From contig JAKUTY010000011.1 in NCBI GenBank assembly GCA_022447825.1, forward strand, positions 1 through 51,144: DNA of 51,144 nt, given 5' to 3'. The stretch's first letter is position 1. Every line of letters starts with the position of its first letter. Below the pieces are notes generated by a model. The model searched no databases. It worked only from the letters and a program-made list of their open reading frames with translations, and was not told where the DNA came from. This stretch comes from SAR202 cluster bacterium (lineage in GTDB: Bacteria > Chloroflexota > Dehalococcoidia > Lucifugimonadales > UBA826). A program made the translations under genes and the position numbers. This document shows, piece by piece, positions 9,440 to 19,154 of this stretch.

Positions 9440-9778
9440 TTACCAGTTTAATAAACAGGGTTTTTGGTCTCTCCATCCCTGATCTGATGGAAAGATAGTG
9501 TCCAATAAGACTCTTTGAGTTTCTCCCTCAAACCATGGTTGAACTGTTTGACGCCATTTTTTGTAATGTGGAGTCGTTTGGTGGTATTGGAAAGCTTGCT
9601 CGTCTTCATAAACTTCATATAGATGAAACTGGTTAGGGACTTCAGCATTTTTTAATATATCAAACCTGAAACAACCGGGTTCATCTTTTACTGAACCCTG
9701 AGAATCTCCAAAACTAGCTTTTTGAAATTCGTCTGCAAATCCATCTTTTATATTGATAGTAACAAATACTGCGAACAT
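9440..9778 (-). CDS. Antibiotic-biosynthesis-monooxygenase (ABM) domain protein
   Basis: A single ferredoxin-like ABM domain, 112 residues. It opens with VFVTINIKDG, then has EPGCFRFDILKN, FHLYEVYEDEQAFQYHQTT and H-Y-K-K-W, the family's typical order. Such small dimeric proteins act as cofactor-independent oxygenases, haem-degrading enzymes or autoinducer-modifying enzymes; the actual substrate is unknown here. The C-terminal 30 residues (GWRDQKPCLLNW) extend past the usual domain. An AAAGGAA ribosome site precedes the ATG. It is convergent with mutL, 14 bases apart. Confidence 0.82.
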   Translation of the reverse strand: MFAVFVTINIKDGFADEFQKASFGDSQGSVKDEPGCFRFDILKNAEVPNQFHLYEVYEDEQAFQYHQTTPHYKKWRQTVQPWFEGETQRVLLDTIFPSDQGWRDQKPCLLNW

Positions 9779-9814
9779 ATTTCCTTCCTTTACACGTAGA
9801 ATTTTCCGATTATA

Positions 9815-10621
9815 TCAGTGAGACGAACCTTTTTCTTGGTTTTTTATTTCATGCCATAATTTATCTTTTTCAAAAATAGATAATTTTGTGAAATCCTCAG
9901 AATTTTTAGCCGCTAGAATTTCCATTTGATTAAATCTTTTTTCGAACTTTAAATTAGATAATCTTAACGCTTGCTCAGCATCGATAGATAGATGTCTTGA
10001 AAAGTTCACAACACTGAATAATAAATCTCCAATTTCTTCCATTTGTTCTTCAGAAGATTCTGCAGATTCTATTTCTTTCATTTCTTCATAAATTTTTGCT
10101 TTTACTTCATCAATATTATTCCAGTCAAATCCAGTTTTGGCTGCATTTTTCTGTAATTTTTGAGCAGACGCTAGAGAGGGCAGTGATTTGGGAAATCCAG
10201 CTAAATTAGATATAGGTTTTGATTTTCCATTCTCTGTTTTTTTAATTTCATCCCACGATTTTTTTAATTCTTCTTCAGATGAAACTGTAGAGTCGCCAAA
10301 AACATGTGGATGTCGTCTAACGTATTTCGCTATTAATGCTTTAAACATGTCATCTTCATTAAATTTGTGACTAATTTTAGCTAATGAAATTTGAAAAGCT
10401 AAATGAAGCATTACATCTCCAATTTCTTCCATAGTGTTTGGTGTGTCATTTTTTTCTATAGCTTCAATTAATTCGTGACTTTCTTCCAGAAACATTGGTG
10501 ATAATGTCATAGGTGTTTGTTTTTTATCCCATGGACAACCTTCAGGCCCTAAAAGAACCTCTAATAAAGACATTAATCCTCTGAAATTATTGGGGAAATT
10601 TTCTTTAGAATCCCTAATCAT
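9815..10621 (-). CDS. mazG: Nucleoside triphosphate pyrophosphohydrolase MazG
   Basis: House-cleaning enzyme that hydrolyses (d)NTPs to NMPs and pyrophosphate. Two MazG domains are visible. The first has GPEGCPWDKKQTP, then EESHELIEAIE and EEIGDVMLHLAFQ, which carry the Mg-binding Glu/Asp residues. The second has KTGFDWNN, EEMKEIE and EEIGDLLFSVVNFSRHL. YVRRHPHVFGD between them is a family hallmark. At 268 residues it matches the two-domain bacterial form. It is divergent from the DUF1461-like gene across 52 bases. Confidence 0.95.
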   Translation of the reverse strand: MIRDSKENFPNNFRGLMSLLEVLLGPEGCPWDKKQTPMTLSPMFLEESHELIEAIEKNDTPNTMEEIGDVMLHLAFQISLAKISHKFNEDDMFKALIAKYVRRHPHVFGDSTVSSEEELKKSWDEIKKTENGKSKPISNLAGFPKSLPSLASAQKLQKNAAKTGFDWNNIDEVKAKIYEEMKEIESAESSEEQMEEIGDLLFSVVNFSRHLSIDAEQALRLSNLKFEKRFNQMEILAAKNSEDFTKLSIFEKDKLWHEIKNQEKGSSH

Positions 10622-10673
10622 TTTTGCTCCATTTTAATTGTAAAAATATTAGTTAATCATTTAGTATGGATTA

Positions 10674-12734: not shown

Positions 12735-15305
12735 TTATATTATTTGGAATGAAGAACCTTCAGGGGATTTGAAAACTTCTATTTTTTCTTCAAAACTTTC
12801 TTTCATGCTATCGATATGAGTAATTACTATTATTTTTTTGAAGTCATTTCGAATTGATTGTATTGCTTCAATCATAGTTTGTTGTCCTTTGAAATCTTGG
12901 GATCCAAATCCTTCGTCTATGAATAGTATAGGTAGAGGAGCTCCCGAGCGTGAAGCTAATAATTTTGAAAGTGCTATTCTAATAGCAAAATCTATTCTAA
13001 ATGATTCTCCACCGCTAAAGGTTTCATAGTTTCTAATTCCCATTTCATCTGAAATTTTTATCTCTAGTTCTTCGGAGGGGATTCCAGTTTGTCTATCTAA
13101 TCTGCCTCCGGTAAGGTTTAATAAAATCTGCATTTTGTTTTCTGACAATTTTTCAATCAATTCATTTGCATTATTTTGTATCTCAGGGACTGCTTGCTCA
13201 ATTAATAATGCTTGAATTCCATTCCTTCCAAAAGCAGCGCTTAACTCCTGATAAATTTCTAATTCATTTTGAATTGATGTGACAGAATTCTCTAATTGAA
13301 AAATTTCATTTTGAATTGTTTGGTTTTTTTCCAAATCTCTTTCTAAAACAGTTATTTCTAAGCTCAAATTTTGATAATTTCCAGATAATACCTCTATTTT
13401 TTTTGATGTTGAAAGAAGTAAATCATCAACAGCTTTGTTTTTTTCAATTTCATGATCGATTTTAGAAATTTGATTATATAAATCTGAGTTTTGAGAATTT
13501 TTTTCTGTAATGGTTTTTTGGGAGTTGATGATGTTTATATTTAAAGAATTTAAATTAGTTTCGGCCTCAAGTAATTTTGAATTTGAATCCAAGAATGGCA
13601 TTAATCTAGAAATTTCTTTTTCAAGTTCTAAGTGTATTTTAGGGTCATAGTTTAGGTCATGAATTTTAGATCCTATTTCAATTAATTCATTTCTTTGTGT
13701 TTTGGCAAATTGATCTTCGGATATTTTTTGTTCCAAATCTTCTATATTTTTGAATGTTTCATGAATGTTTTGAAGATTTTTATTTTCTTGATCCAATTTA
13801 GAATTCAGTAAATGGAGTTCAGATTCAATTTCTGATCGCTGATTTAAAGTAGTATTTTTTTTAGGAGAATTTTCTGATTCAATTTGATTGATTTGATTTT
13901 TATATTTCTCAATTTTTTTCTGATTAATTAAAAATGTTTCTTGACTTTGTTTTCCTAGATTTTTTAATTCTGACTCTATATGTTGATGAGTCTCTGCATT
14001 TAATGACTGAGAGCATAATGGGCAATGATCATTTGATGTTTTTAATAAATCGAATTTTTGTCTAGTATCATTCATAGTATTTTTAAGTGCTGCATTTTGA
14101 ATTTCTATTGCATCAATTTCCGATTTTATTGTAGGGATTAAACCTAATTTTTGTTCAAGTGAAATGAGAGTTTCGTTCAACTTTTTTAACTTAAAATGTC
14201 CATCTTTTAAATTGGTTTCAATTTTAGGGATTGTGATTTCCTGAATGTTTTTCAGATTGTTATATGTCTCTTTAAGGGACTTTAAATTTATTTCTTTTTC
14301 TTGTTTTTCAAGAGCAATAGCTTGATTGAGCTTAGATTTTTGATCTTCAAGGTCTCGTAAAATTGAAAACACTGCAGATAATTCAGCTACTTGTTTTTGA
14401 TTATATTTTAGTGTGTTTACATTAGACTTGATTTCATCAGCTTGATTAGTAATTTCCTGAAATTTAATGGATTGTTTTATCCATTCACTCATCTGACTTT
14501 CTAGAGATTTGATATCTTTTTCATTCATTTGAATAAGGGATAAATTTGTTGTTTTTTGTTGTGCCATTAACGATAAATTTGTTTTTTGATTTTGTTGTTC
14601 AGAAAGATTTTGTTTGAGGTTGGAGATTTGGTTTTCAGTTTCCAAAAGAATTTGATGTTTGTGTTCTAATGATTTTGATAAGTCTTTAGGAGGGATTAAG
14701 TCGCTTTTTCTGAGTTCTAATATGGCTTTTTTATTGTTTAAGTGTCCGTTAAGTTGGCGTGAATTTTCTTTAGATTGAATTGATAGATTTTCATAAAATT
14801 CTAAATTCAAAACTTCTGATAAAATTTTTTTCCTGTCAGTAGGAGTAGATTTGCTGAAATTGTCTGAATTTCCTTGTTTTAAATAAGCAGTATTAATAAA
14901 AGTTTCGTAATTCATATGAATTATATCTATGATTTTTTCTTGAGTATCTTTAATAGTATTTCCCATAATTGAAGTTGCTCCGACGTCTGTTAACAAAAAG
15001 AAATTTAATTCAGTTTTTCCCTGTGAGCTTGTCTTCGAAAATTTTCTAGATACCCTGTACTGATCTGAATCTATAGAAAAATCTAATGAAACACTCATGT
15101 GATTAGAGTTTTGATTTACTAACTCTTCTTGAGTTCTAGTTCTTGATTTCCCCCAAATTACCCAAGTGATAGCATCTAAGATCGCTGTTTTGCCATGGCC
15201 ATTTTCACCAGATATACAAGAGACATGAAGTAAGTCAAAATCCAATGTAGGCACATTACTTTGGTAACACATGAAGTTTTCGATTGATAATTTTAAAGGA
15301 ATCAT
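12735..15305 (-). CDS. sbcC: SbcC/Rad50-type exonuclease ATPase
   Basis: SMC-like ATPase subunit of the SbcCD nuclease that processes DNA ends and hairpins. The head is split: Walker A in GENGHGKTAILDAITW near residue 35, then about 600 residues of coiled coil rich in Lys, Gln, Glu and Leu. The zinc-hook motif CPLCSQSL is near the middle. The C-terminal signature is TFSGGESFRIDFAIRIALSK with Walker B ILFIDEGFGSQD. At 856 residues it is within the family range. The nuclease partner sbcD is not adjacent, which is unusual. The gene follows the OsmC-like gene by 16 bases and is probably the last gene of the pyrimidine operon. Confidence 0.92.
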   Translation of the reverse strand: MIPLKLSIENFMCYQSNVPTLDFDLLHVSCISGENGHGKTAILDAITWVIWGKSRTRTQEELVNQNSNHMSVSLDFSIDSDQYRVSRKFSKTSSQGKTELNFFLLTDVGATSIMGNTIKDTQEKIIDIIHMNYETFINTAYLKQGNSDNFSKSTPTDRKKILSEVLNLEFYENLSIQSKENSRQLNGHLNNKKAILELRKSDLIPPKDLSKSLEHKHQILLETENQISNLKQNLSEQQNQKTNLSLMAQQKTTNLSLIQMNEKDIKSLESQMSEWIKQSIKFQEITNQADEIKSNVNTLKYNQKQVAELSAVFSILRDLEDQKSKLNQAIALEKQEKEINLKSLKETYNNLKNIQEITIPKIETNLKDGHFKLKKLNETLISLEQKLGLIPTIKSEIDAIEIQNAALKNTMNDTRQKFDLLKTSNDHCPLCSQSLNAETHQHIESELKNLGKQSQETFLINQKKIEKYKNQINQIESENSPKKNTTLNQRSEIESELHLLNSKLDQENKNLQNIHETFKNIEDLEQKISEDQFAKTQRNELIEIGSKIHDLNYDPKIHLELEKEISRLMPFLDSNSKLLEAETNLNSLNINIINSQKTITEKNSQNSDLYNQISKIDHEIEKNKAVDDLLLSTSKKIEVLSGNYQNLSLEITVLERDLEKNQTIQNEIFQLENSVTSIQNELEIYQELSAAFGRNGIQALLIEQAVPEIQNNANELIEKLSENKMQILLNLTGGRLDRQTGIPSEELEIKISDEMGIRNYETFSGGESFRIDFAIRIALSKLLASRSGAPLPILFIDEGFGSQDFKGQQTMIEAIQSIRNDFKKIIVITHIDSMKESFEEKIEVFKSPEGSSFQII

Positions 15306-15321
15306 ATTGTGATATTTTAGA

Positions 15322-15831
15322 TTAGATATTATCTACTTTTTTGCCGTTGATTATACAAATACTTTGTAGAGGTACAGCTTTAATCACTAGGCTTTCAGCA
15401 AAGCATCCTTTTTTAGCAAGTTTTATCACGCTGAGAATGTCTTCGAAATCTTCTTCGGATGACACCTCAAAAAAGCTTCGGACTTCTGAAACTCCACTTT
15501 CAATATTTTCACCTACAATAGAACCGGACAAGAAAAAATCCAACTCAACTTTAACTCTAGCAGATTTGATCGAAATTTTTTTCATTGAAGCGTACCGCTT
15601 CATATTAGTAAGTAATCAAAATCCGATCCCTGATGCTATGTAAGTTAATGGGGCAGGAAACTCATTTTCTCCTCCCATTTTTTCTGGTTCATCAGAAAAA
15701 AATGAAAACTCTCCGTGATTTGCTACATGAAGCATTTTTTCTAAGTGATCACATGTAACAGAAATTGTTGACTTTTTCATACCTTTTGGTAGATCTTTTC
15801 CATGAATATGAGGTGGGATATCACTAGGCAT
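15322..15831 (-). CDS. OsmC-like protein, predicted selenoprotein (in-frame TGA = Sec72)
   Basis: OsmC/Ohr-fold proteins reduce peroxides with two Cys residues. Here two short frames lie in the same register, separated only by TGA at 15618-15616. The first (71 codons) has FFSDEPEKMGGENEFPAP and LTYIASGIGF, the family's N-terminal half up to the first redox Cys. After TGA come LLTN, then MKRYASMKKISIKSARVKVE, and near residue 143 KKGCFAESLV, the second Cys site. Reading TGA as selenocysteine gives 169 residues with Sec72 in place of the first Cys and Cys143 in place of the second, spaced as in the family. A SECIS-like hairpin follows directly. It starts 11 bases after carB. The alternative is a recent nonsense mutation; a later start at the internal ATG near 15780 is possible. 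Confidence 0.78.
15586..15602 (-). promoter_or_regulatory. Candidate bacterial SECIS hairpin
   Basis: On the coding strand, 13 bases after the in-frame TGA, TGAAGCGGTACGCTTCA forms a 7-bp perfect stem with a GTA triloop, or a 6-bp stem with loop GGTAC. The GGU at the tip lies 20-22 bases after the TGA. Bacterial SelB-bound SECIS elements, such as E. coli fdhF, have GGU in the apical loop at a very similar distance. It lies within coding sequence and encodes MKRYASM. Confidence 0.72.
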
Positions 15832-15842
15832 TTATTATCCAA

Positions 15843-18800
15843 TTACTTGTTGTGTAGGTACTCACTTATAGTTTTTACATTGTAGTTCAATGTCCTTGAA
15901 CTTATATTTTCTGAGGCTGTTCTAGCAGTGTCCAACGATGTGAAACATGGAATTCTCATCTCTACGGCGGCTCTTCTGATATGAAAACCATCTTGCAAAA
16001 CACTTCTGTCTCCTGTGACTGTGTTTACAACAGCATTAACGGTAGAGTTTTGAATAATATCAACAACATTTGGATGCCCATCTTCTAATCTTTTATTAAT
16101 TTCTATGACCGGAACACCTAATGAATTGATGAATTTTGCTGTTCCTTGAGTTGCAAAAATTTTGTATGAATTTTTGTGGAGGTTGTTAATTAGGGGGATT
16201 GCGTTTTCTTTGTCTTGGTCAGAAATGCTTAATAATATAGATCCACTTTCAGGAAGCATCATATTTGAAGCAATCAATGCTTTTGTCGTAGCTGCTTCGT
16301 ATGAAGTGTCTAATCCCATTACTTCCCCTGTTGACTTCATTTCTGGTCCCACATATGTGTCAACTCCCACTAATTTGGACATAGAGAAAACAGGTGCCTT
16401 AACCCCTACCAGTTTTTGTTTTTTCCATAATCCTGTTCCAAATTTAGAATCACTAAGTTTTTTACCTAACATTATATCGACAGCTAGTTGCACCATTGGG
16501 ATTCCTGTAATTTTAGAAATGAACGGAATAGTTCGGCTTGATCTAGGGTTAACTTCTATTACATAAACTTCAGTATTTGAAGCTTTGAAATCTTGAGATG
16601 GATTTCTGTAAGGATCTCCACCTACTACAACGTATTGTATGTTCATTAATCCTTTGATATTTAGAGATTTCCCAATAGTTTCTGTGTAATCGACTATAGT
16701 ATTAACTTCTTCATCAGACAATGTTAAAGCTGGATAAATTGCCATAGAATCTCCACTGTGAACTCCAGCACGTTCAACATGTTCCATTATGCCGGGAATA
16801 AGAATATTGTCTCCGTCACAAATAGCATCTACCTCTACCTCTCTTCCTTCAAAGTATTTATCAATTAAAATTCTTTTGCCACTTCCAGCCTCTATTGCTT
16901 TTTCCATATAATTTACTAATTCTGTGTCATTGTGCACAATTTCCATGGCTCTTCCACCCAAAACGTAACTAGGGCGCACTAATACTGGGTATCCTAACTT
17001 GTTTGCTATATCAATTGATTCTTCAACTGTTAGTACAGTTCCTCCTGGAGGGTTGGGTACACCAGTTTTTGAAAGAAATTCTTCAAAAAGATGCCTATCT
17101 GAAGCAGTATCTATTGATAAAGCAGATGAACCTAAAATAGGGTTGTTTGTTTGATCTAAAATTTGGGATAAATTGATGGCTGTTTGCCCACCAAATTGAA
17201 CTATTGATGGGATTTTATCTTTTTGTTTTTTAATACCTGTGTCATTCTCATTATCAATAATATCTAACACTGATTCTGAGTCTAATGGCTCCACATATAA
17301 TCTGTCACTGATATCAAAATCTGTTGAAACTGTTTCAGGATTAGAATTGATCATGATGCTTTTGATGTTATTTTTTAACAAGGCTTTAGCTGCGTGAACA
17401 GAGCAATAATCAAATTCTATTCCCTGACCAATTCTTATTGGACCACTACCCAATACTATCGCTTTATTCCCTTTGAGGGGATATGCTTCATTTTCAGTTT
17501 CGTAAGTGCTATAAAAGTATGGTGTGACTGCCTCAAATTCTGCAGCACATGTATCTACCATTTTATAGACAGGTACAATTCCATTTTCAATTCTAAATCT
17601 TCTTATTTCCAAACTGGATTTGTTAGATAAATTTGCAATAATTTCATCTGGAAACCCTAATTTTTTTGCTCTTGATATGATTTTGATATCAGAAGAATTA
17701 TTACGGATAGATTTTTCAAAGTCTGTGATTTTTTTAAATGCTCTTGTAAACCAAGGGTCAATTCCTGTAGTTTTTGAAACTGTTTCTGGTGATATCCCTC
17801 GTCTTAAAGCTGCTAATACTCCCCAAATTCTTTCATCATTTGGAGTACGGATAGATTCCAATATTTGATCAGTATTTTCCCATTCAGGATCTTCCCAAAT
17901 CAATGATTTATTTGAAATTTCTAACGATCTGATAGCTTTTTGGAAAGCTGATTCAAAAATCCTATCAATCGCCATTACCTCTCCAGTCGCTTTCATCTGT
18001 GTCCCAAGAACTCTGTCTCCAGAATAGAATTTATCAAAAGGCCATCTTGGAATTTTTACAACGCAATAATCTATTGCAGGCTCAAAAGCAGCTAAAGTTT
18101 TAAGTGTGATTTGATTAGTGATTTCATCTAAAGTTTTTCCTACAGCTATTTTGGCAGCTACTCTTGCTATGGGATAACCTGTTGCTTTACTTGCTAAAGC
18201 CGAACTTCTACTTACTCTAGGATTGACTTCAATCACATAATAGCTGTTTGTGGATTCTCCTTTATCGGGTAATGTATTCCCAACTATGTCTCCGGGGGCT
18301 AGAGCAAATTGCACATTACATCCGCCTTCAATTCCTAATGCTCTAATGATTCTCAGACTGGCAGACCTCAACATTTGATGGTCTTGATCAGATAATGTTT
18401 GGCTAGGGGCTACAACTATACTGTCTCCTGTATGGACTCCCATTGCATCGATATTTTCCATGTTACAGATTGTTATACAGTTGTCCGCTGAATCTCTCAT
18501 TACTTCATACTCTAACTCTTTCCATCCAACTATGGATTTCTCCACAAGAACTTGATGAATAGGACTAGCAGCGAGTCCAGATTGAACTATTTCTTCAAAT
18601 TCTGAAGATGTGGTTGCAATTCCACCTCCTGTTCCACCTAGTGTGTAAGCAGGCCTAATTACCATGGGGAGACCAATGAGTTCTTTTGCTGTGATTGCAG
18701 ATTCAAGTGAGTCAACTATTTCACTTGGAGGAACAGGCTCACCCAAATCGGATAATAATTTTCTGAAAAGATCTCTATCTTCAGCATTTTTAATTGTTTC

Positions 18801-19154
18801 TACAGTACTCCCTATTAACTGAACATTATATTTTTCTAATACTCCTTGTTCAGATAATTCTATTGCTAAATTCAAGCCTGTTTGACCACCTAATGTCGGG
18901 AGAATTGCATCAGGTTTTTCTTGTTCAATAATTTTAGAAATTACTTCTACACTTAATGGTTCTATATATACTCTGTCAGCTGTCTCTTCGTCAGTCATTA
19001 TTGTTGCAGGGTTTGAATTAACTAAGACTGTTTGGATGTTTTCTTCTTCTAAAGATTTACATGCTTGAGTCCCTGCATAATCAAATTCTGCAGCCTGTCC
19101 AATTACAATTGGACCAGATCCAATAACTAAAACTTTGTCATATTTATTTTTCAA
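15843..19154 (-). CDS. carB: Carbamoyl-phosphate synthase, large subunit
   Basis: Makes carbamoyl phosphate from bicarbonate, ammonia (from CarA) and 2 ATP for pyrimidine and arginine synthesis. It has two homologous halves of about 550 residues, each with a pre-ATP-grasp and ATP-grasp domain. The first opens with [20 protein letters not shown], and the second repeats it as [22 protein letters not shown]-grasp blocks are [12 protein letters not shown] and [12 protein letters not shown], followed by [20 protein letters not shown] and [17 protein letters not shown]. The C-terminal allosteric domain begins near 950. At 1103 residues it is full length. It starts at TTG with a GAGG box, 10 bases after carA. 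Confidence 0.97.

Follow-up and report, generated by a model that had tools for sequence, protein, structure and literature searches.

The osmC-like gene analysed here, from a SAR202 cluster bacterium, very probably encodes a selenoprotein of the OsmC family, the in-frame TGA at its codon 72 being translated as selenocysteine (Sec72). We base this reading on the score of the protein against its family, the selenocysteine machinery of the same genome, the finding of TGA in every one of the 34 recovered Sec-type loci, the covariation of a SECIS-type hairpin and purifying selection on both sides of the TGA. A probable OsmC-like selenoprotein had already been proposed in a preliminary description of this DNA, and every check proposed there that was run came out in its favour. 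The features concerned are the following, with positions counted in the window, i.e. the whole stretch of 51,144 nucleotides that was analysed:

12735 to 15305, minus strand: gene of an SbcC/Rad50-like ATPase, directly downstream across a gap of 16 bp (AAA_23 and SbcC_Walker_B above cut-off)
15322 to 15831, minus strand: putative OsmC-like selenoprotein gene, from an ATG at 15831 to a TAA stop (translation through TGA; NF041052, 144.2 bits; Pfam OsmC, 40.8 bits)
15403 to 15405, minus strand: codon of Cys143, the predicted resolving cysteine (invariant in 22 sequences; aligned with Cys125 of E. coli OsmC)
15586 to 15602, minus strand: SECIS-type hairpin UGAAGCG-GUA-CGCUUCA with GGU at its apex, beginning 13 nt downstream of the TGA (fold z -2.7; covariation in two sets of relatives)
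15616 to 15618, minus strand: TGA codon 72, the candidate selenocysteine codon (TGA in 34 of 34 Sec-type loci; aligned with Cys59 of E. coli OsmC)
15843 to 19154, minus strand: carB, directly upstream across a gap of 11 bp (TIGR01369, 1442 bits; order conserved in the family)

The gene has 169 codons plus the TAA and contains a single in-frame TGA. With translation table 11, ORF calling splits it into a frame at 15616-15831 (71 aa, ending at the TGA) and another at 15322-15603 (93 aa, starting at an internal ATG), and annotation without selenoprotein handling turns this gene into two hypothetical proteins. The starting observation, namely two short frames in one register with only a TGA between them, was seen again, the strand, left unstated before, being the minus strand and the TGA standing at 15618-15616, and the peptides LTYIASGIGF and KKGCFAESLV named on its two sides are both present in the translation. 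Translated through the TGA, the motif at codon 72 is U72-L-L-T75, matching UxxT. Elsewhere in the window, TGA joins eight more pairs of frames whose halves are each at least 50 codons long; seven of these pairs, on comparison with the ORF list, are antisense and lie inside or mostly over long genes. The eighth, at 9440-10633 on the minus strand, consists of a MazG and an ABM monooxygenase gene in one frame with the TGA between them; as each of the two has a domain to itself, they give the impression of plain adjacent genes and not of a selenoprotein. Among all these pairs, only the osmC-like one is known to yield one family domain that spans the TGA and, given this domain and the conservation of the TGA in the Sec-type loci, we consider the pair to be more than chance.

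In particular, the read-through protein far exceeds the curated cut-off of 95 bits of the NCBIfam model NF041052, 'OsmC-related (seleno)protein' (OsmC_like_Se), in a match that extends across the TGA, and it also passes the Pfam OsmC cut-off of 27.5 bits; all 22 members tested exceed the NF041052 cut-off. The gene is thus a further member of a selenoprotein family that is already known, since OsmC-like selenoproteins with the UxxT motif had been reported in print in 2005 (PMC1088965; three Sargasso Sea sequences) and in 2008 (PMC2398784; five Global Ocean Sampling sequences). These two papers bear out the earlier remark that OsmC-like selenoproteins had been reported from marine metagenomes, and such proteins are also listed in a 2026 review (PMC13188914). 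With the metagenomic family our gene shares the OsmC domain, the UGA at the first redox cysteine, the UxxT motif and a bacterial SECIS with a G in the apical loop. What differs is the setting: here the gene belongs to a SAR202 genome with a conserved carB-osmC-sbcC order, while SAR202 is absent from all three publications, and our literature search found no paper mentioning SAR202 and selenoproteins together. In other words, a selenoprotein family known from metagenomes gains a host in SAR202, a marine lineage of the Chloroflexota.

As for the machinery that selenocysteine insertion would require, it had been suggested to search the genome for selA, selB, selD and tRNA-Sec, and all four were found in the assembly (1.38 Mb, 98% complete). 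Namely, tRNA-Sec scores 67.6 bits, above the Rfam cut-off, with ARAGORN in agreement (tRNA-SeC, anticodon TCA), while SelB (TIGR00475), SelA and SelD reach 345, 524 and 369 bits, respectively. SelB is above cut-off in 14 of the 16 family genomes searched, and the two without it are both incomplete (G001, 78%; G003, 55%). Two family members, G011 and G015, have SelB and no osmC(Sec) gene. The selD gene itself (G000:C23:62097-63017; locus L010, TGA near 1528) carries its own in-frame TGA in a SCAGU motif near the N-terminus, for which reason the SelD of this genome is probably a selenoprotein too, as SelD is known to be elsewhere.

The hairpin after the TGA agrees with the bacterial SECIS as described in PMC1088965. 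Its fold z-score was obtained against shuffles, and its 7-bp stem is reached by only 16 of the 576 synonymous codings of the peptide MKRYASM. What is more, relatives have a stem at the same place made of other sequences, e.g. CUCGCUC-GGUU-GAGCGAG, GUGUCCA-GGUA-UGGACAC and UUGAGCG-GUU-CGCUCAA. The relatives were divided into two groups, with loops one register apart, according to which register gave the best hairpin, leaving out of both L032, which has a deletion, and L045, which pairs differently. The stem positions pair in 94% and 98% of cells in the two groups; double-sided changes number 11 and 9, and the covariation score was reached by none of 500 shuffles in either group, these controls retaining some relatedness; slid controls gave scores far lower than that of the hairpin. 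In both alignments the apical loop keeps its GG without exception, and L019 and L028 have weakened hairpins. Covariation thus supports a SECIS of this selenoprotein family. An Rfam search of the stretch returned no SECIS family, and its single match, a sub-threshold one to Xist on the other strand, was taken as chance.

What would such a protein do? An AlphaFold2 model with Cys in place of Sec (pLDDT 83, pTM 0.76) predicts an OsmC fold, its best PDB matches being the OsmC-like 2OPL, 3CJE and 2ONF, followed by Ohr and OsmC themselves. A pairwise hhalign comparison with E. coli OsmC alone put the two Cys motifs out of register, and a multiple alignment was used instead; in it, residue 72 does align with the first catalytic cysteine of OsmC, as had been anticipated. 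The predicted fold and both redox positions (Sec72/Cys59 and Cys143/Cys125) are common to our protein, E. coli OsmC (1QWI) and P. aeruginosa Ohr (1N2F). In contrast to the Ohr/OsmC reductases, however, the protein has Sec for Cys, a longer N-terminal part and no conserved catalytic Glu. The top PDB match by sequence profile (72.9 bits), 3CJE, the OsmC-like Jann_2040 of Jannaschia, differs at the first redox position as well, having Cys at both. Invariant in the alignment of 22 sequences are D47, E48, G53, P59, Y64, F71, Sec72, R79, G103, A139, C143, N162 and G163.

From the sequence we infer the following course of events, and this applies to selenium incorporation, peroxidase activity, substrate and reductant alike. 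SelA and SelD would supply selenocysteinyl-tRNA-Sec, and SelB, docked on the hairpin immediately downstream of UGA72, would insert selenocysteine where translation would otherwise terminate. Sec72, placed in the central helix, would attack a peroxide, probably an organic one; the resulting selenenic acid would then form a selenenylsulfide with Cys143, to be reduced by a cellular dithiol. An Ohr-like peroxidase function of this kind seems to us reasonably likely. That said, Ohr uses a catalytic Glu, and the one preceding the first cysteine (NPEEL in E. coli OsmC) is missing here, E49/E50 corresponding to L62/T63, which are unconserved among the Sec members. Ohr-type chemistry may consequently not be transferable, and since this Glu is absent we do not assert Ohr activity for the protein. 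There is a smaller yet appreciable chance that the selenoprotein has a non-Ohr role, such as disulfide/thiol exchange or the handling of sulfide or persulfide. Along with the missing Glu, this alternative is favoured by a different set of invariant residues (D47, E48, Y64, R79) and by nearest solved relatives that are OsmC-like proteins known only by structural genomics titles, while the retained Sec/Cys pair at the OsmC redox positions and the predicted OsmC fold speak against it. It is less likely than not, though plausible, that the Sec-type OsmC family of SAR202 relatives represents a redox enzyme in its own right, one that lacks the catalytic Glu of Ohr, relies on Sec72 and Cys143 along with further invariant residues (D47, E48, R79) and acts on some substrate that is not among the organic hydroperoxides reduced by Ohr.

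Returning to the selenoprotein reading of codon 72, the 34 Sec-type loci come from 14 family genomes (including this one), class-wide loci and two named records that carry exact copies of two family genes. The closest named relatives, by which the host was judged to be SAR202, both have TGA: they are an uncultured Chloroflexi MAG and SAR202 AG-426-M11, whose name marks it as a single-cell genome. All ten alignable remoter homologues have Cys (TGC in nine, TGT in one), so that relatives show TGA or TGC/TGT at this codon and nothing else. Viral contigs, searched as well, yielded no relative. Among close relatives, dN/dS is approximately 0.04-0.06 for the part upstream of the TGA and 0.11-0.13 for the downstream part; synonymous changes predominate in both parts, so the substitutions are not random ones, and such low values indicate purifying selection on both halves. 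Could the halves nevertheless be two separate small proteins of 71 and 93 residues, each translated independently? An ATG does lie four codons past the TGA (15603), but Leu replaces this Met in close relatives, one OsmC domain covers both halves and a predicted helix (residues 61-83 of the AlphaFold2 model) passes across the TGA position, and we rejected this reading as very improbable. A pseudogene or sequencing error, i.e. a Cys-type OsmC with TGC or TGT mutated to or misread as TGA, would likewise yield two fragments in standard ORF calling, but was rejected as having practically no chance: the TGA stands in every Sec-type locus, purifying selection persists downstream of it, a covarying hairpin follows it, and its occurrence in independent assemblies, including the single-cell genome, excludes in practice the read error at 15616-15618 that had been named as a possible objection. 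At one locus, L032 (G012), four codons are missing right behind the TGA and the matched stretch contains a TAG; it is probably a decaying or misassembled copy. Two genomes (L048/L049, with G356:C16 and G290:C97) carry a TGA-type OsmC plus a paralogue without internal stop, which makes for a natural pair in which to compare the Sec and non-Sec forms.

Finally, the gene had been called unexpected inside a pyrimidine operon. The placement is real, as pyrB-pyrC-carA precede carB at this locus and the order carB-osmC(Sec)-sbcC is found in 14 of 14 loci of this SAR202 family; in the window, the downstream gene matches the sbcc model TIGR00618 below its cut-off. The placement is, however, specific to this lineage and is no evidence of a functional link. 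Neither carB nor sbcC was found within about 1.5 kb of the more distant homologues, so the association probably stems from the history of the lineage and from joint transcription, not from a common function, carB and the osmC-like gene being probably co-transcribed.
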